Part shown: positions 3,826-22,746 of the stretch, piece after piece
Numbering within the stretch: the stretch's first letter is position 1
How the letters are laid out: every line of letters begins with the position of its first letter
Source: Turicibacter sanguinis
GTDB taxonomy: Bacteria > Bacillota_I > Bacilli_A > MOL361 > Turicibacteraceae
Reading direction: 5' to 3'
Length of the DNA: 64,000 nt
NCBI RefSeq assembly: GCF_013046825.1
Contig: NZ_CP053187.1
Location: 527,501-591,500, forward strand
Made by a program: the position numbers and the translations under genes
Notes under the pieces: model-generated
Database searches by the model: none
Told to the model about the DNA's origin: nothing
The model's input: only the letters and a program-made list of their open reading frames with translations

Positions 3826-4677
3826 TTAACCTAAAATTTCATATTTTTTAATAACTTGAATGGCAACACAGTTTGGTCCACCTTGAGTTGTAAACACTGG
3901 GGTTAACATCATGATTTCTGTTTCAACATTTTCAATATTTTTAATTATAACGTCTTTAGCTATATTTGCCAACTCTTCATTGCAAGCATGCGTAATATAA
4001 ATTTTATACTGTTCATTTACCTCCATTTCTTTGTAGCAATCACAAATTTCTTGAATAGCTTTTTTGAAGGTGCGTTTAGTTGCGAACTTATCTAATCGCG
4101 TACTATCTTCTGATAATGTCATAACAGGAACTAATTTAATTAATCCACCGATTTTTCCTACAAGAGGAGATAAACGTCCCCCTCGTACTAAATAATCAAA
4201 GTCATTAGGAATTAAGAATGATTTTGAAGTTTGAATTAATTTTTCTAGTTCTTCTATAATTTCTGCTTTTGTTTTATTTGCCTGTGCTAATTTAACCGCC
4301 ACTTCAACTAAGTAACGTTGTGGTCCACAAAGTGTTCGTGAATTAATGACAGTAATATTTTCAGCATGATCAACCATTGTACGTGCTGTACAAGCTGAAT
4401 TATAAGTTCCTGATAATCCATCAGCTAATGTAATATTGATAATTTCATCTTCAGGATATTGATTATAAACATCCACCACTTCTCCAATTGATGGTTGTGA
4501 TGAAATAGGTAAATGTCCTTCATTGATAATTTTAACAAATTCCTCTGTTTGAATTTCAACTAATTCTTTGTAGCTTTTATTATTAATCGTTACACTTAAC
4601 GGTGTTACATCAAAGTTGTGTTTTTTTGCTTCTTTAACTGAATAAAGTGTTGATGAGTCTGAAATAATTCTAATCAT
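3826..4677 (-). CDS. DegV family (FakB-like) fatty-acid-binding protein
   Basis: A 283-residue protein. The start ATG at 4677 (MIRIISDSS) has GGAGG seven bases upstream; a longer in-frame TTG start would overlap that site. Family marks are IISDSSTL, SQPSIGEVVD, ITLADGLSGTYNSA, RGGRLSP and GPNCVAIQ near the end. DegV proteins bind a fatty acid and, as FakB, present it to the kinase FakA for phosphorylation and phospholipid synthesis; no fakA is seen here. First of three DegV paralogues in the window. Cotranscribed with the DUF1836 gene. Confidence 0.92.
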   Translation of the reverse strand: MIRIISDSSTLYSVKEAKKHNFDVTPLSVTINNKSYKELVEIQTEEFVKIINEGHLPISSQPSIGEVVDVYNQYPEDEIINITLADGLSGTYNSACTARTMVDHAENITVINSRTLCGPQRYLVEVAVKLAQANKTKAEIIEELEKLIQTSKSFLIPNDFDYLVRGGRLSPLVGKIGGLIKLVPVMTLSEDSTRLDKFATKRTFKKAIQEICDCYKEMEVNEQYKIYITHACNEELANIAKDVIIKNIENVETEIMMLTPVFTTQGGPNCVAIQVIKKYEILG

Positions 4678-4708
4678 ATTCTGTTCCTCCAAATTAAAAA
4701 GTCACACT

Positions 4709-13133: not shown

Positions 13134-14224
13134 ATGAACGATAATAAGATAAAGTAATCGATAGAAACTCTGAGTGCAGGATGTAGCGGGCTATCTTGGA
13201 TTAGTGAGGATCAAAAACATTTTTGGGGGAGAAACTTCGATTTCAATCGCATTGCATCAAATAGCAAAATAACCTTTGTTCCAAGTGGCACAACTTTCTA
13301 CGCTTGTGGAACAGCTATTGAAAAAAATCTAGATGAATCAACCAAGTTAACCTCTTCATATGGTGTGTTAGGAATGGGATCCTTAATCTTAAAAACAACT
13401 CCAACTTTTTTTGAAGGCATTAATGAGAAAGGATTAATGGGGGGCAACTCTACTATCGTGAGTTTGCTAAATATGCTGATGAAGTGAAGGAAGGAACCAT
13501 CCCCTTACAACCTATCTTTGCCGTTACTTACTTCTTAAGTATGTGTGCTACCGTCGAAGAAGTCATTTCAAAATTAGAAAATGATGTTACACTTATCGCA
13601 AAGCCTGTCTTCGGGGATATCCGTAATACTCACTGGATGTTTAGTGACCGTACAGGAGAAACCATCATCATTGAACCTGATGTAGATAAACTGAAGATTC
13701 ACCGACATTCAATGGGCGTCTTAACAAATAGTCCAAATTACGATTGGCATCGTACCAATTTATTAAATTACTGCAATATACGAAGTCTCGATTATTCAAG
13801 CGTTACACTGAATGACGATACGATTGAAGCCTGTTTCTCAGGGAGCGGAGCAGCTGGACTGCCAGGAGATTTTAGCTCGCCATCTCGATTTACACGTTTA
13901 GCCTTCCTCAAAAATTACGCCTGCAAAGGAAAAAATGAAACCGAAGCTGTTACCTATATGTTCCAAACATTTAAAAACGTTCAATTTCCAATGGGGATCG
14001 TTGAAGTTGGCGAAGATAAAACCATTACGGAGCATGATAGTGGCGTCGTTTTATTTGATTACACGATTTACACTGCCGTTATGTGCTCTGAATCTCTTCG
14101 CTATTACTGGGTAAGCTACCAAAACATGCGTATTCAATGTGTGGATATGAACCCATTAATTGAGAAAAAACAAGCTGTTCAATTCGAATTAAATCCTATA
14201 AATGACATCAAATATCTTAATTAA
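13134..14224 (+). pseudogene. Choloylglycine hydrolase/penicillin acylase family gene, inactivated
   Basis: Ntn-hydrolase family that includes bile salt hydrolases and penicillin V acylases. A strong AGGAGG precedes ATG at 13134, but codon 8 is TAA (13155-13157). The expected body follows in frame: the likely nucleophile Cys in SAGCSGLSW, the conserved WGRNFDFNR and GINEKGLMGG. One base is then missing near 13452, and the remainder (YYREFAKYADEV, MGVLTNSPNYDWH, GSGAAGLPGDFSSPSRF, YTAVMCSESLRYYW) continues in another frame to 14224. With a stop and a frameshift it should be non-functional. Full length would be about 360 residues, somewhat longer than typical bile salt hydrolases, so bile salts are only one possible ancestral substrate. 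Confidence 0.85.
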
Positions 14225-14338: not shown

Positions 14339-15178
14339 TTATTCAATAACGCCACCTTCAACCACAATATTATCAGGCGTTGCCGCATCACCATAAACTG
14401 GCGCTAATGTTTCTTCATAATCGGCATGGAAGAAATCCTCTTTTCCAAGCTCTACAATCTCATTATTTAACCACTCTAATAACTCATCATTGCCTTTTTG
14501 GACAGCTGCTGCAATCGTATCAATACTTCCTAATGATTCAACTCCAACACTAAATCCTTCATTTTCAAGTGCCCATGCTAATACTTCTGTATTATCAGTC
14601 GAAAGAGCATCTCCACGACCATCGAGTAGCGCATTATAGGCTTCACTATATTGATCAAATTTTAATAAATTTACATTTGGATAATTTTCAGTAAAATAAG
14701 TTTCTGCTGTTGTTCCTTTACTAACAATGAGCGTTTTCCCATTTAATTGTTCGACATCTGTAATTAACGCATCATCTGGAGAAACAACTCCTAGTGCCAC
14801 TTTCATATAAGGTAAAGTAAAATCTACTTTTTCTTTTCTTTCCTCAGTCACTGTAAAGTTTGCCAAGATAATATCCACTTTATTAGACACTAAATATTCA
14901 ACACGACTTGCCGCTTCAACGGGTACGTACTCAACTTCTACGCCAAGGTCTTGTGCAATTCGATTCCCAAAATAAACATCATAACCTTGATAATCCCCAT
15001 TCGAATCAACATAACCAAACGGTTTTTTATCACTAAAGACACCAATAATAATTTTTCCACTCTCTTGAATCTCTTCAATACTTCTCGCTTCTGATTGACT
15101 AGTATTTGATTCACCGCATGCCCCTAAAACTCCTAACGTTAATAAGAAACTCATGAAACATAAAAAAACTTTTTTCAT
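14339..15178 (-). CDS. Polar amino acid ABC transporter substrate-binding lipoprotein
   Basis: A 279-residue SBP of the bacterial PBP family 3. The start at 15178 (MKKVFLCF) follows AAAGGAG; a start 18 bases upstream would overlap the ATPase stop. Lipobox LGVLGAC gives a lipidated Cys. Ligand-binding signature is GVFSDKKPFGYVDSNGDYQGYDVYFGNRIA, split here as GVFSDKKPFGY and QGYDVYFGNRIA. Last gene of a four-gene importer operon. Amino acid specificity (glutamine, cystine or other) is not clear. Confidence 0.9.
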   Translation of the reverse strand: MKKVFLCFMSFLLTLGVLGACGESNTSQSEARSIEEIQESGKIIIGVFSDKKPFGYVDSNGDYQGYDVYFGNRIAQDLGVEVEYVPVEAASRVEYLVSNKVDIILANFTVTEERKEKVDFTLPYMKVALGVVSPDDALITDVEQLNGKTLIVSKGTTAETYFTENYPNVNLLKFDQYSEAYNALLDGRGDALSTDNTEVLAWALENEGFSVGVESLGSIDTIAAAVQKGNDELLEWLNNEIVELGKEDFFHADYEETLAPVYGDAATPDNIVVEGGVIE

Positions 15179-15192
15179 TCTAAATTCTCCTT

Positions 15193-15933
15193 TCATTCAA
15201 ACGTGAACAGATTTAAAAATTGTTTAGCCCGATTCGTTTTAGGATTCGTAAAAAATGTTTCTGGATCACTTTCTTCAATAATCTGTCCTTCATCTAAAAA
15301 AATAATTCGATCTGCAATCGCACGAGCAAACTGCATTTCGTGAGTTACAATGACCATCGTACTTCCCTCTTTAGCAAGTGAAAGCATCACATCTAATACT
15401 TCTCGTACCATTTCTGGATCAAGCGCAGCCGTCACCTCATCAAATAATAAAATTTCTGGTTTCATACAAAGTGCCCGAACAATGGCAACACGCTGTTTTT
15501 GACCACCTGATAGTTGGTGTGGATAAGCATTTTTCTTTTCTAATAACCCCACCCGTTCTAATAATTGCTCTGCTTCTTTCACCACCTCGACCTTATCCCG
15601 ATTTTGTGCTTTAATAGGACCTAACGTAATATTTTGCAACACATTCAAATGTGGAAATAACTCGTAACTTTGAAAAACCATACCAATTTTTTGTCTAACT
15701 AAATGCATCTTTTTATGCTGATTGCTAATCACCTCATCTTCTAATAAAATTTCTCCTGCTTGAATACTCTCTAATCCATTCATACATCGTAGCAATGTAC
15801 TTTTTCCACAGCCAGAAGGTCCTAAAACGACGACGACCTCCCCTTTTTTTATCTCTAATGACAAATTAGAGAAAATAATCTGATTATCATAACTTTTTGT
15901 AATCTGGTCTAGTTTTAATATCGTTGAGCTCAT
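15193..15933 (-). CDS. Polar amino acid ABC transporter ATP-binding protein (GlnQ-like)
   Basis: A 246-residue ATPase with Walker [13 protein letters not shown]-loop [12 protein letters not shown], signature LSGGQKQR, Walker [15 protein letters not shown] and switch His in IVTHEMQF. The pattern [14 protein letters not shown] is typical of GlnQ/ArtP ATPases. It follows its permease by 9 bp and is just upstream of the binding protein, so it energises import by the two permeases. Confidence 0.93.
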
Positions 15934-15942
15934 CTCTTCACC

Positions 15943-16620
15943 TCACTCCTCCCAATGCTTTTCTAGTTTTGTTGCAGCCAATGAAATCGGATAACAGATT
16001 AAAAAATAAAGTAGAAAAATAACCCCATATATCCAAAGAGCTGCCGTCGGAACTGTTAGTCGTGAAGCCTCAATAATTTGTTGTCCTACCTTTACGACCT
16101 CAACGACTCCAATTAAAACAATTAATGAAGTCGTTTTGATAATACGCGTCACTAAATTAATCGTTTGTGGAAGTAATCGTCTAATCGTTTGTGGAATAAT
16201 AATATATTGATAAATTTGACGCTGATTCAATCCAATCGCCAACGCTGTCTCATACTGATGTTTCGGGATTGAATCTAAAGCCCCTCGTACTAAATCTCCC
16301 ATTTCAGCAATTCCCCAAAAAGAAAACACTAAAATAGAGGCCACTTCTCCTGATAAATTAATCCCAAAAGATTTACTCAAACCAAAATAAGCTAAAAACA
16401 ATAAGACTAACTGTGGAACAATTCGAACCGTATTTAAATAAAGACGACAGATTAGACGAACGACCTTTGTCTTCACTCTCATGAACATCCCCATTACAAG
16501 GCCCAAAACAACTGAAATCATCACAGAAATCAAAGAAATTTCTAATGTCACTCCTAGTCCTTGTAACAATCGAATGAAATTTTTTCCTTCAAATAAAACA
16601 CTAATTCCCCACTCCTCCAT
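15943..16620 (-). CDS. Polar amino acid ABC transporter permease (second)
   Basis: A 225-residue HisM/GlnP-type permease with about five membrane segments. The EAA loop for ATPase contact is GALDSIPKHQYETALAIGL. Start at 16620 (MEEWGIS) follows AAGGTG and overlaps the end of the upstream permease by 20 bases, suggesting translational coupling. Pairs with the other permease to form a heterodimer. Confidence 0.9.
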   Translation of the reverse strand: MEEWGISVLFEGKNFIRLLQGLGVTLEISLISVMISVVLGLVMGMFMRVKTKVVRLICRLYLNTVRIVPQLVLLFLAYFGLSKSFGINLSGEVASILVFSFWGIAEMGDLVRGALDSIPKHQYETALAIGLNQRQIYQYIIIPQTIRRLLPQTINLVTRIIKTTSLIVLIGVVEVVKVGQQIIEASRLTVPTAALWIYGVIFLLYFLICYPISLAATKLEKHWEE

Positions 16621-17260
16621 AACGCACCTTCTTCTCAATAACACTTAAAATTAATGAAATAGGTAATAACAGTACTAAATACGCAACAACTAACATCAAC
16701 AAGGACTCGTCAGTTTTATAATAAAGCCCGATTAATCCTTTTGCTACATACATTAAATCTGCTAATGCAACGACACTAAAGACAGATGTTTCCTTGATTA
16801 AAAAAATCACATTTGCACTAAAAGCAGGCAGCGAGACTGCTACTGCTTGAGGAAAAATAATATAACGTAAGACTTGCCATTTGGTTAAACCAAGGCTCAA
16901 TCCCGACTCCATTTGAATGTCAGGAATGGACTCGAGTCCACTTCGAAAAGCCTCAGCCATATAACTCCCACCTAAAAAAGTTAATCCAAGTACTCCACAT
17001 GCATATGAACTTAAAAAGATCCCTAACTTCGGTAATCCAAAATATAGAAAAAACAATTGAATTAATAACGGTGTATTCCTTGAAAGTTCTATATACATCC
17101 CAATCACACGTTGTAAAATTGGAATCTTATAATATCGAATTAAACAGCAGATAAATCCAACTAAAGTAGACAATAAGATTCCCAAAAGAGCGATACTCAT
17201 GGTTAACTTAGCAGCCTCTACATACATCGGTGCATACGTTTTTATAAATTGAAAATCCAT
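16601..17260 (-). CDS. Polar amino acid ABC transporter permease (first)
   Basis: A 219-residue HisM/GlnP-type permease, first gene of the importer operon. About five membrane segments. EAA-like loop is FRSGLESIPDIQMESGLSLGL. Upstream, GGAGG precedes the ATG at 17260. Likely forms the channel with the product of 15943-16620. Confidence 0.9.
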   Translation of the reverse strand: MDFQFIKTYAPMYVEAAKLTMSIALLGILLSTLVGFICCLIRYYKIPILQRVIGMYIELSRNTPLLIQLFFLYFGLPKLGIFLSSYACGVLGLTFLGGSYMAEAFRSGLESIPDIQMESGLSLGLTKWQVLRYIIFPQAVAVSLPAFSANVIFLIKETSVFSVVALADLMYVAKGLIGLYYKTDESLLMLVVAYLVLLLPISLILSVIEKKVRYGGVGN

Positions 17261-17353
17261 TATCTCCCTCCTAACTATAATCCTCTTGATATATAGTATA
17301 TTAAGCCCAGAAAAATGTTCGTTAAAAATAAGAAAGTATTGAAATTAATCTAC

Positions 17354-17389
17354 AAAAAAGCTCTCAAGAACAATCTTGAGAGCTTTTTT
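17354..17389. terminator. Strong rho-independent terminator
   Basis: AAAAAGCTCTCAAGA / TCTTGAGAGCTTTTTT around ACAA. It serves the acetyltransferase gene on the minus strand. Confidence 0.9.
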
Positions 17390-17395
17390 CATTTT

Positions 17396-18607
17396 TTAAA
17401 AGTAATCTGAAAAATAAGGTGTCTGTTGCTCAATCGCATCCTCTAACATATCTAATGTCTTTGAACTACAACTCAAACGACCAATCTTATGAAGATAATC
17501 AGGACGCTTATATCCCAGTAACATCGTCGTCATGGTTTGGATATCAATGCGATCCCCTGTTTTCACACTGGTACGTTTGATTTTACCGACACCCTCCGTA
17601 TCAATACTTAGCGTAAAAGAGCCTTGATTCCACGAAAGAAGCGGATCATCCATTGTAAAAGTCCACTCCCTTGCAATCGTATCTGGCTTAAATGGATATT
17701 GTTCAATAAATTTTTCTAAGTCAACAATTCGTGCCATAAAATACGGTGAAATGGTCTCTTTAATATCGGCATCCTCAAGTAAAAAAGCTAATGGTTCATC
17801 CGTATACGTATTTCCAATTACTTTTTTTATCATTGAAAAATGGGCACTAATAAAATTCCAAAGTCCCGTCCTTGCTTCCTCATTTATAAAAATCATATCT
17901 TTAATATTAAAAATTTCGTCCTTAATAAAATAAAGAATATACCCATCGGCAAACCCTGCTTCATTATAATAAATAGCCGCCATTAAATCGTCACTATCCC
18001 ATAGAAAATATTCATTCCATGCTAAATCATCACGAAGTAAGGCACCATGAGTTTGATAAGCAAAGCGTTCATATGCTTTTTTAATTTCTTCACTTTCAGC
18101 ATCCACACGTTCAACTTCCCCACTCACGCGTCGATGCTTAGGCAATTGATAATCATTAATTTCATACACAATCTTATCTGATACAATCTCCCATCCTTTG
18201 CGTCTGTAATAAGGAATAGAATACGGATAAAGATAAGAAATAGGTTGGTTATGATTTTTCATATGTTTTAACGCTTCTATTAGTAATTTATGCATCAGTC
18301 CTTGGTTCGCATACTCAGGATAAGTTCCAACCCCTGTCACGCCCCCCATATCATATGTCTGATTAAAAATACGGACACGCATCGGATAAATCGCAACTTG
18401 CGAAATCAATTGGTCCCGATCAAACCAGCCAATCACATCTGCTCGCTCAAGCGTTGGGGATTTAGCTCGAATCATTTCTTTTTCCTGCCATCCAATTTCT
18501 TGAAGTTCTTGGTCTGTCACCTGAAATACATATCTCAGTAATTGATTGTACTGCTCTAAATGCTCTAATCCAACTTTACTCATTTTCAACTGTTTTTTTC
18601 TACTCAT
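17396..18607 (-). CDS. Eis-like GNAT acetyltransferase
   Basis: A 403-residue protein with the size and layout of the Eis family: N-terminal GNAT domain with the acetyl-CoA loop GVGTYPEYANQGLMHKLL, a second GNAT-like middle, and an SCP2-like C-terminal part (VGKIKRTSVKTG, MTTMLLGYKRPDYL). Eis homologues N-acetylate amines, including aminoglycosides, at several positions; the natural substrate here is unknown. GGGAG precedes the ATG. It follows the MATE gene by 40 bp and is probably cotranscribed with it, which fits a detoxification pairing. Confidence 0.85.
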   Translation of the reverse strand: MSRKKQLKMSKVGLEHLEQYNQLLRYVFQVTDQELQEIGWQEKEMIRAKSPTLERADVIGWFDRDQLISQVAIYPMRVRIFNQTYDMGGVTGVGTYPEYANQGLMHKLLIEALKHMKNHNQPISYLYPYSIPYYRRKGWEIVSDKIVYEINDYQLPKHRRVSGEVERVDAESEEIKKAYERFAYQTHGALLRDDLAWNEYFLWDSDDLMAAIYYNEAGFADGYILYFIKDEIFNIKDMIFINEEARTGLWNFISAHFSMIKKVIGNTYTDEPLAFLLEDADIKETISPYFMARIVDLEKFIEQYPFKPDTIAREWTFTMDDPLLSWNQGSFTLSIDTEGVGKIKRTSVKTGDRIDIQTMTTMLLGYKRPDYLHKIGRLSCSSKTLDMLEDAIEQQTPYFSDYF

Positions 18608-18647
18608 AAATCCGTCTCCCTTTATTTTTTACTATCTAAATAGCTGT

Positions 18648-20009
18648 TTAGTCATCCTTATAAATCGTTTTAATCTTTTTAAAATAAAACAATACGATAA
18701 TCATATTTGTTAAAGGAAAAGCTAAGAACATTCCCTGTTCTGCTGAAATATTAAAAATATTAAATCTTGAAAAAAGAACCGAAAAAACAATAACTAAAGG
18801 AATGAGTAAAACAATTTGCCTTACCACCTCTAACTGGCTAGCCTTTGCTTCTTCTTTCGATACTTGCATAAACGTAATCAATGTATAAATGATTCCCATA
18901 AATGGAAATCCCGCTACCATAATTCTAAGGATCGGAATCGCAGACTGGATTAAACTCTCATCACTCGTAAAAATCATTAATAACGGTCTCGTCCATAAGA
19001 GACTGACTATCGTGATTACCAAAGCATAAATTAAACTATAATTCACAATTTTTTGTTTCGCTATTCTCTCAGATTGATGGTTCTGACGCCCATGGAAATA
19101 CGCAATAACAGATTGACTCCCCTGTATTAACCCAATTAATGGTAACAAAATCACCGTATTTATATTATTACAGATGGCGAAGGCTCCAATTGACGAAACA
19201 TATCCAAGTCCAATTAAACGACGATTAATAACAAAGCCACTGACACTATTAAGAGCTTGCATCAAAAACTGCACAAATCCAATTTTAATAATAGAAATCA
19301 AAATCTCTTTCGATGGATTAATAGTTAAATGGACCTTCTTCATCCACAGTTTTTTGTGCATTAAAAATAAAACGGCGCAACTAAAGTAGATGACACTACT
19401 TGTTAGTGTAGCAAAGGCAATCCCAATAAATCCAAGTCCTAAAATAAACGTAAAGAGCACGTTAAAGAACACATTACTGAGCGTTGAAATAACCCCGATA
19501 ATAATTTCCATTTTAGGATAACCAAACACCCTAATCATATTAACTAACATATAACCGAGCGAATTAAAAATATTGAAAATTAGTGCCAAATTTAAATACT
19601 GTAAAGCATACCGTCTAACCTCACCACTCGCCCCTAAAACAAATAGCAACGGATCTTGTAATAAAAAAATTAATAGTGAAATAGCAATGCTAAACACTCC
19701 ACAACCATAAAATCCAATCGTAAACGTTTCATTTACCTTTTCTTGATTCTTTTCACCTAATCGTTTCGAAACGACAATACTTGTGGATACCCCAAAAATC
19801 AGTTGAGCTGCTAGTAAGATTTGTAAGATAGGTGTTAAAAGCCCCATTGCTGACAAAGCAATACTACTCATACTTCCAAGGTGCCCCGCAAATGCTGTAT
19901 CAATCATTGAAACGAATGACTCCAAAACTAAAGAAAAAATAGTTGGAAATGAAAATAGAACAATCAAATGTTGAATTGACTTATTTTCAAACAACTTTTC
20001 ATGACTCAT
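18648..20009 (-). CDS. MATE family efflux transporter
   Basis: A 453-residue integral membrane protein with twelve predicted membrane segments in two halves. N-terminal family features are FSFPTIFSLVLESFVSMIDT and AFAGHLGSMSSIALSAMG. MATE proteins export cationic drugs or metabolites in exchange for Na+ or H+. It is the first gene of a likely two-gene unit with the Eis-like acetyltransferase. The substrate is unknown. Confidence 0.9.
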   Translation of the reverse strand: MSHEKLFENKSIQHLIVLFSFPTIFSLVLESFVSMIDTAFAGHLGSMSSIALSAMGLLTPILQILLAAQLIFGVSTSIVVSKRLGEKNQEKVNETFTIGFYGCGVFSIAISLLIFLLQDPLLFVLGASGEVRRYALQYLNLALIFNIFNSLGYMLVNMIRVFGYPKMEIIIGVISTLSNVFFNVLFTFILGLGFIGIAFATLTSSVIYFSCAVLFLMHKKLWMKKVHLTINPSKEILISIIKIGFVQFLMQALNSVSGFVINRRLIGLGYVSSIGAFAICNNINTVILLPLIGLIQGSQSVIAYFHGRQNHQSERIAKQKIVNYSLIYALVITIVSLLWTRPLLMIFTSDESLIQSAIPILRIMVAGFPFMGIIYTLITFMQVSKEEAKASQLEVVRQIVLLIPLVIVFSVLFSRFNIFNISAEQGMFLAFPLTNMIIVLFYFKKIKTIYKDD

Positions 20010-20107
20010 TGTATAACCCCTTTTTTTGCTAGAAAACTAAAATGCTCACTTTCTAATAATATTATATTCACTGTATTTTTTATTACCAGTTTTTTGACAT
20101 CTATCAT

Positions 20108-20146
20108 AAAAATCCCACTGACATATCTTTTCAGTGGGATTTTTAT
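20108..20146 (-). terminator. Rho-independent terminator of the HSDH-like gene
   Basis: Stem AAAAATCCCACTGA / TCAGTGGGATTTTT with an 8-9 base loop and T-runs on both sides, abutting the stop codon at 20147. Confidence 0.9.
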
Positions 20147-20953
20147 TTACTTTTCCTCAACTACTTTACGACCAACAAAATCAGCATATTGTGGTGTTCC
20201 TAAATGATAACCACCTGATACCTCCATAATATCCCCCGTTACATAAGAAGAATCATCGCTAGCGAAAAATAGAACCGCATTCGCCATGTCTTCAGGTGTT
20301 CCCATGCGATTTAAAGGAACATGCGATAAGAAAGACTTAATAAATTGTTCTGGCATATTATCAAGAGCTGCATCGGTTGCTGTTAAACCTGGTAATACCG
20401 CATTACATCTTATATTATAGCGCGCATACTGCATAGCGATTTGTTGAGTTATATTGTTAACGCCTGCTTTTGAAACACCATAACCAATACGAGAAATATC
20501 TGGGACCGTTCCACCAATCGATGAAATATTAACAATGCTTCCTTTTCCTTGTTTAATCATATGAGGAATCACCAGTTTAGAGATACGATAAACTGATCCG
20601 ATATTCGCTTCTAAAATATCAAAAAAAGCTTTCTCATCTCCACTAACTAAATCTAAATCTACTTCCGGTCTTCCAGTTCCAAAATTATTAACTAAAATAT
20701 CAATCTTACCTTGTTCCCTAATCACTTCTTCTACCATCGTTTCATAAGAATCAATGTTGTAGGCGTCAAAAAAGACAGGCTTCATTTTCAAACCCTCTTT
20801 AGCCACTTCATCACAAATTTCTTGAGTGACCTCTAAACGACGAACTCCCATATAAACAATGGCACCCTCACTCGCTAATTTTTTAGCACACGCTAACCCA
20901 ATACCTCTTGTTGAAGACGTGACAAGAGCTATTGCATTCTCTAATTTTCGCAT
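20147..20953 (-). CDS. 7alpha-hydroxysteroid dehydrogenase-like SDR
   Basis: A 268-residue SDR. From memory it closely parallels clostridial (Clostridium absonum/sardiniense) 7alpha-HSDH: VTSSTRGIGLACA, NISSIGGTVPDISRIGYG, NIRCNAVLPGLTATDAAL, PLNRMGTPEDMANAVLFF and GGYHLGTPQYADF. Catalytic Ser, Tyr and Lys are in SSIGG and YGVSK. Arg-Arg after beta-2 (GVRRLE) favours NADP(H). Expected reaction: reversible oxidation of the 7alpha-hydroxyl of bile acids in the cytoplasm. The ribosome site GGAGG is part of an inverted repeat. It stands alone as a single gene with its own terminator. A different steroid or keto-substrate cannot be excluded. Confidence 0.75.
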   Translation of the reverse strand: MRKLENAIALVTSSTRGIGLACAKKLASEGAIVYMGVRRLEVTQEICDEVAKEGLKMKPVFFDAYNIDSYETMVEEVIREQGKIDILVNNFGTGRPEVDLDLVSGDEKAFFDILEANIGSVYRISKLVIPHMIKQGKGSIVNISSIGGTVPDISRIGYGVSKAGVNNITQQIAMQYARYNIRCNAVLPGLTATDAALDNMPEQFIKSFLSHVPLNRMGTPEDMANAVLFFASDDSSYVTGDIMEVSGGYHLGTPQYADFVGRKVVEEK

Positions 20954-20954
20954 A

Positions 20955-21002
20955 AAAAAACCTCCAATCTAATCATTATAATTGATATTATGGAGGTTTT
21001 TT
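20955..21002 (-). promoter_or_regulatory. Hairpin that contains the HSDH ribosome site and flanks its -10 box
   Basis: Perfect 12-bp arms AAAAAACCTCCA and TGGAGGTTTTTT. On the minus strand the 3' arm is both a terminator-like stem plus T-run and the GGAGG ribosome site of the HSDH-like gene. A TATAAT (20975-20980) lies inside the loop and could drive a transcript with a leader of only about 15 bases. Confidence 0.6.
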
Positions 21003-21302
21003 ATACTCGATTTTTTATAACGTTACTTATATTGACTATCTCATTTCGCAAAGATACAAACTCAGGAGTGATAATAGCTTACTTCGTAGAGCGAGTCATT
21101 TACTGAGGACCACTTCGCGTAGTAGCTCATAACCAATCAAGTTTCACCTGTAGCTCACTTTCTTGGATGAACCTTGCATGGAGTGCGCTTATCCACACCA
21201 AAATTTCTTCTAATATTGGTCTCACGCAAGTGGCTTCATGCCATTTAGATTTCGCTTTTCAGCTCATCTTCATGGTGAAACTATTGCATAGAGTAGTGCT
21301 AA
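21003..21302. other. Intergenic stretch between HSDH and RlmCD genes
   Basis: No convincing ORF. Loosely repeated words occur: ACTTCG(C)GTAG...TCAT around 21080 and 21110, TTGCAT(G/A)GAGT near 21173 and 21281, and TTTCACC / GGTGAAA as an inverted pair. These may be decayed repeats or part of a structured 3' region. Confidence 0.4.
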
Positions 21303-21330
21303 CTGCTTACACGTTTTTACGTGTAAGCAG
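21303..21330 (-). other. Perfect 12-bp hairpin at the 3' end of the rRNA methyltransferase gene
   Basis: CTGCTTACACGT / ACGTGTAAGCAG around TTTT, overlapping the last codons and stop. There is no following T-run, so it may protect the 3' end or act as a weak terminator. Confidence 0.6.
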
Positions 21331-22686
21331 AGCCACTACTTCTACGTGACTTGTCTGAGGGAACATATCTACAGGTTGTGCGACTTCTAGTTGGTATCCA
21401 CCGTCTACTAGAATTTTAACGTCGCGAGCTAGTGTTGATGAATCGCATGACACGTAGACGATGCGTTTTGGTGCTGCTTCTAGCATTGTGTCTAGTAATG
21501 TTTTATCGCATCCTTTACGTGGTGGATCGACGACGATGACGTCTGGAACGATTCCTTGTTCGATCCAAGCTGGAATAACTTCTTCTGATTTTCCTACTGC
21601 AAATTCTGTATTTTCGAATCCATTTAATTTAGCATTCATGTTTGCATCGGCAATGGCTTCAGGAATGATTTCAACCCCGTAAACTTTTTTGGCATGTTGT
21701 GCTAAGAATAATGTAATCGTTCCGATTCCACAGTAAGCATCGAATACGATTTCTTCTCCTGTTAGTCCTGCAAATTCAACGGCTTTAGAGTAAAGTGTTT
21801 CGGTTTGAACAGGGTTAACTTGATAGAATGAACGTGGTGAAATGGCGAAACGAATTCCGTTCATTTCATCATAAATATATCCTTCACCGTAAATGATGTT
21901 TGTTTTCTCACCTAAAATAGCATTTGTTACGTTTGGATTAATATTTTGAGCAATAACTTTAATCTGAGGGAATTTTTCTAATAAGCGTGACACAATACGA
22001 TCCATATTAATGATTTTCTCTTTACGTGTCACTAAAATAACCATAATCTCATCCGTCTTAAATCCTGTGCGCACGATGACATGGCGTAAAATACCAGTAT
22101 TCGACTCCTCATTATACGGACTTAGTTTTAAATCACGACAAATTCCACGCATCTCATGAATAATTTCATCTGAAATTTCAGTTTGAATTAAACAATGACG
22201 CATATCAATAATCTCATGGCTTCGTTTTTGATAGAACCCAGCCACTACATCACCATTAGCTAAACCAAATGGCACCTGCGTTTTATTACGATAACGCCAA
22301 GGTTCCTCCATTCCGATGGTCGGTAAAATATTCGCATCTTCAATATGACCAATGCGTTTGAACTGATTTACAACTGTATCATATTTCATTTGAAGTTGTC
22401 CTGGATAATTTAGATGCTGAACTTGACATCCACCACATTGTTTATAAATTTTACATGGCGGCGTCACACGGTCAGGACTCTCGACAAATAAATCAACTGC
22501 ACGTCCAATGGCATACGTTTTTTTAACTAATGTTACTTTCATATTAACTTCTTCGCCTACTAGTGCATTTGTCACGAAAATAGGGAAACCATCAATTTTA
22601 GCAACACCTAAACCGTCATGTGTTAAACTTTCAATTTTTACATCATAATATTCATTTTTTACTACTGGTACACTTTTTTTCGACAT
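21307..22686 (-). CDS. rlmCD: 23S rRNA (uracil-C5)-methyltransferase, RlmCD/RumA type
   Basis: A 459-residue enzyme. Start at 22686 (MSKKSVPVV) follows AAAGGTGAT. An N-terminal TRAM domain (about 12-70, VKIESLTHDGLGVAKIDGF) leads to an iron-sulfur Cys cluster CKIYKQCGGCQVQHL. The SAM methyltransferase domain has DAYCGIGTITLFLA, VVDPPRKGCD and the nucleophile region YVSCDSSTLARD. Bacillota members methylate U747 and U1939 of 23S rRNA. The C-terminal end carries the hairpin noted at 21303-21330. Confidence 0.9.
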   Translation of the reverse strand: MSKKSVPVVKNEYYDVKIESLTHDGLGVAKIDGFPIFVTNALVGEEVNMKVTLVKKTYAIGRAVDLFVESPDRVTPPCKIYKQCGGCQVQHLNYPGQLQMKYDTVVNQFKRIGHIEDANILPTIGMEEPWRYRNKTQVPFGLANGDVVAGFYQKRSHEIIDMRHCLIQTEISDEIIHEMRGICRDLKLSPYNEESNTGILRHVIVRTGFKTDEIMVILVTRKEKIINMDRIVSRLLEKFPQIKVIAQNINPNVTNAILGEKTNIIYGEGYIYDEMNGIRFAISPRSFYQVNPVQTETLYSKAVEFAGLTGEEIVFDAYCGIGTITLFLAQHAKKVYGVEIIPEAIADANMNAKLNGFENTEFAVGKSEEVIPAWIEQGIVPDVIVVDPPRKGCDKTLLDTMLEAAPKRIVYVSCDSSTLARDVKILVDGGYQLEVAQPVDMFPQTSHVEVVALLTRKNV

Positions 22687-22746
22687 TTTTCTATCACCTT
22701 TATTCACAAAGAGAGGGAGACTAAAATAAGCCTCCCCTGCCTTTTA

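Follow-up and report, generated by a model that had tools for sequence, protein, structure and literature searches.

A 7alpha-hydroxysteroid dehydrogenase gene of Turicibacter sanguinis MOL361 and its probable horizontal origin

Turicibacter, a genus common in the gut, has been linked to the bile acids and lipids of its host, and the bile-acid-oxidizing role of the T. sanguinis gene considered here is already known, as its activity on cholic acid (CA) is in print. Lynch et al. (2023) cloned in E. coli a homologue from T. sanguinis MOL361 with 57% identity to the 7alpha-hydroxysteroid dehydrogenase (7alpha-HSDH) of Clostridium absonum. In that study, two hydrogens were removed from CA, DCA was not acted upon, and oxidation of chenodeoxycholic acid (CDCA) was not cleanly shown against the E. 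coli background (PMC10281990). Kemis et al. report that T. sanguinis produced 7-oxo forms from ~6% of CA and ~8% of CDCA (PMC6715156). A 7alpha-HSDH accounts for this 7-oxo bile acid production, a point likewise already published. The C. absonum enzyme has a solved structure (5EPO), and the structure paper describes Arg38 as essential, the R38D mutant being inactive, and Ser as the usual state at position 145, with Thr145 of C. absonum the exception (PMC4785404). The accessible parts of three further papers (PMC9250206, PMC13289106, and PMC12848039) hold nothing further on the HSDH gene.

We analyzed a window of 64,000 nucleotides from the T. sanguinis MOL361 genome, which is one contig of 2,999,687 bp, the size also printed for CP053187.1 in PMC11165905. 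The original prediction had placed a 7alpha-HSDH-like SDR gene at 20147-20953, and this stretch does hold a single intact minus-strand open reading frame (ORF) with an ATG start and a Shine-Dalgarno-like GGAGG 7 bases upstream; in the frame inspected, the plus strand over the same positions contains many stops. The gene is of the hdhA type and encodes a classical SDR of 268 residues, compared with 262 in the 5EPO chain. A terminator-like stem-loop with a T run was read by eye 3' of the gene (20108-20144, minus strand). The terminator scanner, which has a loop limit of 8 bases compared with 11 in this stem-loop, returned none at that position, and neither the terminator nor the promoter scan gave an excess over chance.

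When aligned to the C. absonum enzyme, as had been proposed as a check, the window protein is 57.3% identical over 260 residues. Arg16, Arg38, Tyr158, and Lys162 are common to both, whereas Ser145, Asp194, and Asp63 of the window protein stand opposite Thr145, Arg194, and Asn63. We found no difference between this gene and the MOL361 homologue of Lynch et al. (PMC10281990): the strain is the same, the 57% identity is the same, and the gene is the sole one of its kind in the genome, whose seven other SDR matches share 26-35% identity with the window protein. The ORF is therefore almost certainly the gene that was cloned, an identification that uses strain, percentage identity, and uniqueness rather than a locus-tag match. 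The published oxidation of CA bears out the predicted bile-acid oxidation role in a gut organism and runs counter to an absence of activity on bile acids, which had been named as a refuting outcome.

Taking all lines together, we are nearly certain that the gene encodes the NADP(H)-dependent 7alpha-HSDH of T. sanguinis MOL361. The enzyme would reversibly oxidize the 7alpha-hydroxyl of bile acids, converting CA to its 7-oxo form and CDCA to 7-oxo-lithocholic acid. Tyr158 would act as the base with the assistance of Ser145 and Lys162, and NADP+ would be bound via Arg16 and Arg38. The gene was probably gained from a clostridial donor; the slot that it occupies, with rlmD on one side and an amino-acid ABC transporter operon on the other, is variable. 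The parts of this picture that we infer are the use of NADP over NAD, action on CDCA, the direction of the reaction in the gut, which donor supplied the gene, and whatever role the leader hairpin may have.

Origin of the gene within Turicibacter

A scan of genome contigs with short exact patterns of the window protein yielded 16 loci, 14 of them at least 47% identical to it and six at 72-85%. These six relatives (L005-L010) belong to Clostridium cuniculi, a Peptostreptococcaceae MAG, [Eubacterium] tenue, Romboutsia, Intestinibacter bartlettii, and Robinsoniella peoriensis, with the C. cuniculi protein the nearest at 84.7% identity. Arg38, Ser145, Tyr158, and Lys162 are present in all six, and Arg16 in five (Lys16 in Robinsoniella, L010). 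Both relatives scanned against the NCBIfam 7alpha-HSDH equivalog NF049979 (L005 and L010) pass its cut-off. Within the genus, three of five sampled genomes carry a homologue at E 1e-70 or better, namely MOL361 itself and the genomes G001 and G004; one of the two genomes lacking it is 85% complete. The G001 and G004 proteins are 56-58% identical to the window protein over the full alignment, lie elsewhere in their genomes, and fall in another clade. Both retain Arg16, Arg38, Ser145, Tyr158, and Lys162, and the G001 copy, which was the one scanned, passes NF049979 with 439.0 bits. Across a phylum sample of 392 genomes, six match at E 1e-75, half of which are Turicibacter.

The phylogeny comprised 22 rows, with four distant loci (L002, L003, L019, and L020) and one identical to another (L055, the same as L018) omitted; among the rows kept, L054 is missing its first ~23 residues and L053 sits on a long branch. 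The window gene falls in a set of eight (support 100/97) made up of itself, the six relatives at 72-85% identity, and one row of the same class on a long branch (G069). The G001 and G004 genes form a group with the enzymes of C. absonum and C. difficile (97/91). A single clade of the three Turicibacter genes was rejected (AU p 0.00185), with the same outcome in an earlier tree that contained the faulty rows L003 and L054 (AU p 0.00152). The exact donor is less sharply placed, the grouping of the window gene with that of C. cuniculi reaching 80/58. These results indicate that the HSDH gene was probably acquired horizontally and speak for 7alpha-HSDH genes of two origins in Turicibacter. The literature searched, with most subscription papers outside its coverage, contains no report of two HSDH origins in the genus. 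Given two origins, differences between strains in bile oxidation may come down to the particular HSDH that each acquired.

The main alternative is vertical inheritance of the gene within Turicibacter, its clostridial look then stemming from uneven sampling. The sample does leave some room for this, as it holds five genus genomes, three with a homologue, and the contig scan, by using short exact patterns of the window protein, kept the set of homologues small. We nevertheless regard vertical inheritance as improbable: the protein is far closer to that of C. cuniculi than to its two Turicibacter homologues, both AU tests (p 0.0015 and 0.0019) rejected one clade for the three genes, and the chromosomal slot that holds the gene differs in content in three other genomes where visible, one of them in part.

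In the window, this slot is flanked by the amino-acid ABC transporter operon (14339-17260) and rlmD (21307-22707), with a block of GNAT, MATE, and HSDH genes between them. The MATE efflux transporter gene (18648-20009, minus strand) lies directly downstream of the HSDH gene and scores 153.8 bits against TIGR00797 (cut-off 147.4); its best other match in the five genus genomes at E 1e-40 is 31% identical. The Eis-like GNAT acetyltransferase gene (17396-18607, minus strand) does not reach the cut-off of any of the six NCBIfam models that it matched. We compared the gap at 17261-21306 with the corresponding stretches L037, L050, and L051, and its contents differ among the window, G001, G002, and, in partial view, G004. 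Both flanks are present in G001 and G002; between them G001 has genes that were read by eye as a transposase, an HD-domain gene, and a methyltransferase, and G002 has an rRNA operon with a tRNA gene. In G004, an island with transposases (by eye) follows rlmD, and the stretch fetched contains, from the ABC genes, just the first 68 residues of one match. The fifth genome, G003, stood outside the comparison because its contig ends beside rlmD.

The neighborhoods of the six close relatives were also compared, and all differ from that of the window. By tblastn at E 1e-8 and at least 35% identity, one of the 23 other window proteins had a match at the six loci, an ABC ATPase by L007 (37.6%). As this was the only neighbor match, none of the six supplied the GNAT, MATE, and HSDH genes jointly. 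A bile-acid operon was also sought around the homologues; by eye, the ORFs at L005 and L007 included no recognizable further bile-acid gene.

Two kinds of mobile carrier were searched for HSDH genes. Among 72,556 plasmid records, 12 match at E 1e-60, none with at least 60% identity, and they comprise 11 C. difficile records and one from Paraclostridium (50.6% identity). The phage collection of 50,697 records has 16 matches at E 1e-30, with a maximum identity of 37.8%. Both candidates were rejected. The one C. difficile record inspected of the 11 (L056), although filed as a plasmid, carries the HSDH homologue between rplL and rpoB and looks like chromosomal sequence because these core genes flank it.

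Two further features of the slot were observed. The G004 island contains, at 2220-8428 of L037, genes that by eye resemble antibiotic-resistance genes: a nucleotidyltransferase, an ABC-F ATPase, and an MFS efflux gene. Separately, the ~100 bases just after rlmD in the window (21200-21302) have three copies in G004 (L037) at 72-74% identity; these lie on both sides of the apparent mobile island, one of them also just after rlmD.

Family assignment and rival functions

By curated family score, nearest solved structure, and conserved residues, the assignment of the window protein as a 7alpha-HSDH is supported. The protein scores 446.6 bits against NF049979 (cut-off 350, E 2.5e-134), in a match spanning its residues 4-260 and positions 1-257 of the 258 in the profile. 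In total, 233 NCBIfam families match at E < 0.001; of the best 25, the 24 others all score below half of the NF049979 value, and none reaches its own cut-off. The second-best of these 25 is a 7alpha-HSDH model of the NF050023 type (220.8 bits, cut-off 450). Pfam returns general SDR-type families alone. The best PDB match is 5EPO with 314 bits (E 6e-93), followed by a structure at 161.5 bits.

The alignment identifies the catalytic Ser/Thr-Tyr-Lys set of classical SDRs as Ser145 (codon 20519-20521, minus strand; Thr145 in C. absonum, its role from PMC4785404), Tyr158 (20480-20482, minus strand), and Lys162 (20468-20470, minus strand). The NADP-recognizing arginines Arg16 and Arg38 are both present, the codon of Arg38, which is key to NADP recognition in the C. 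absonum enzyme, lying at 20840-20842 on the minus strand (roles from the same source). A third cofactor arginine, Arg194, is absent and replaced by Asp194. Since the C. absonum enzyme alone has Arg at this position among 20 aligned rows, Arg194 does not define the family, and the activity of the R194G mutant of the C. absonum enzyme (PMC4785404) means that Asp194 is not decisive against a 7alpha-HSDH. As a side observation, Lynch et al. describe the homologue of strain H121 as lacking 'Asp38' (PMC10281990), whereas the structure paper calls Arg38 essential (PMC4785404); 'Asp38' in the former is possibly a slip for Arg38.

The original prediction also named three sequence blocks as shared with the clostridial enzyme. 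VTSSTRGIG is identical in C. absonum. For the other two, that enzyme reads VPDISRIAYC in place of VPDISRIGYG and LGTPQYSEY in place of LGTPQYADF; both blocks recur without change in L005, L006, and L007, which are closer relatives.

A competing reading makes the protein a general SDR, of the FabG or sugar dehydrogenase kind, with something other than a bile acid as its native substrate. SDRs are often promiscuous, and this reading can draw on that fact, on the sheer number of families matched (233), and on the G001 homologue (59% identity), which, besides passing the 7alpha-HSDH model, is just over the cut-off of a 'glucose 1-dehydrogenase' subfamily (216.2 vs 215 bits). The window protein itself, however, passes the 7alpha-HSDH equivalog and none of the other 24 among the best 25 models, and so the better fit to another SDR subfamily that would have spoken against the prediction was not observed. 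The genome, moreover, has separate genes that pass a FabG and a KduD cut-off, and the top models of the four SDRs scanned among its seven others are FabG, KduD, or generic SDR. With the published action of the MOL361 homologue on CA (PMC10281990), a general SDR is very unlikely and is largely refuted already.

HSDHs of differing specificity have the SDR fold in common, which speaks for an enzyme of another position or face. A 12alpha-, 3alpha-, or 7beta-HSDH can be virtually dismissed, as the top model and the top structure are both 7alpha and the cloned MOL361 protein was inactive on DCA, which has 12alpha- and 3alpha-hydroxyls and no 7-hydroxyl (PMC10281990).

We also considered the broken choloylglycine-hydrolase-family gene that had been offered in support of the HSDH role. 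This pseudogene does exist: its reading (13134-14224, plus strand) meets an in-frame stop early on and changes frame near 13440. It lies 5.9 kb from the HSDH gene, in line with the ~6 kb first noted. As support for the HSDH role it is weak: the five PF02275 matches in the genome represent three intact genes elsewhere and the broken one in two pieces. Lynch et al. found two active hydrolases in MOL361 (PMC10281990), so the broken copy need not be required for deconjugation.

A predicted hairpin in the leader

The leader of the HSDH gene is predicted to fold into a hairpin (20950-21006, minus strand) whose 3' arm includes the Shine-Dalgarno GGAGG and the start codon. Its energy is -20.1 kcal/mol, with a z of -5.51 against shuffled sequences and -5.22 with 500 other shuffles, none of which folded as low (0/500); for a 72-base version of the leader, 0/1000 shuffles fold as well. 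Both its energy and its z are the second lowest among 45 ORF starts in the window, a set reached by removing by hand, from 51 listed, six that overlapped, were broken, or lay close to the end of the window. The window has a single occurrence of the arm pattern AAAAAACCTCC...GGAGGTTTTTT, and a shorter core, AAACCTCC...GGAGGTTT, is found at two places in the genome.

None of the six close relatives has a leader hairpin of this strength. Over the same 66 bases their leaders fold at -2.4 to -10.5 kcal/mol, and five do not depart from chance (z -1.07 to 1.37). The sixth, from Robinsoniella (L010), takes a different, weaker fold in which the start codon is again paired (z -2.34, 9/500 shuffles as low). 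L006 has the 3' arm GGAGGTTTTTTATG but not the 5' arm. The leaders of the G001, G004, and C. difficile HSDH genes showed no fold beyond chance (z 0.01 to 1.41).

Any role of the hairpin in HSDH expression is speculation. One idea builds on a TATAAT in its loop (20975-20980, minus strand), a possible -10 element 22-27 bases before the ATG whose best -35 matches at 3/6 positions. Transcripts arriving from rlmD would have the Shine-Dalgarno and start codon locked in the hairpin, while those begun at the loop promoter would be without the 5' arm and could be translated, so that the HSDH would be expressed only when the inner promoter is on. Certain late genes of phage T4 have been reported to follow a comparable scheme. 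We give such insulation from read-through a small chance, and a hairpin that simply terminates transcription from rlmD is no less likely than the inner promoter.

The upstream region (20985-21306) was also considered as a known riboswitch or sRNA and rejected, its five Rfam matches being weak and none near the gathering score; across the whole window, no Rfam match reached that score. The fold of these 322 bases has a z of -1.43. The strongest leader hairpin of the 45 ORF starts belongs to another gene: a perfect 17-base inverted repeat, TCTAAAACATATAGTAT, with a loop of 3, is located 18-54 bases before the listed TTG start of the ORF at 3826-4692 (minus strand).
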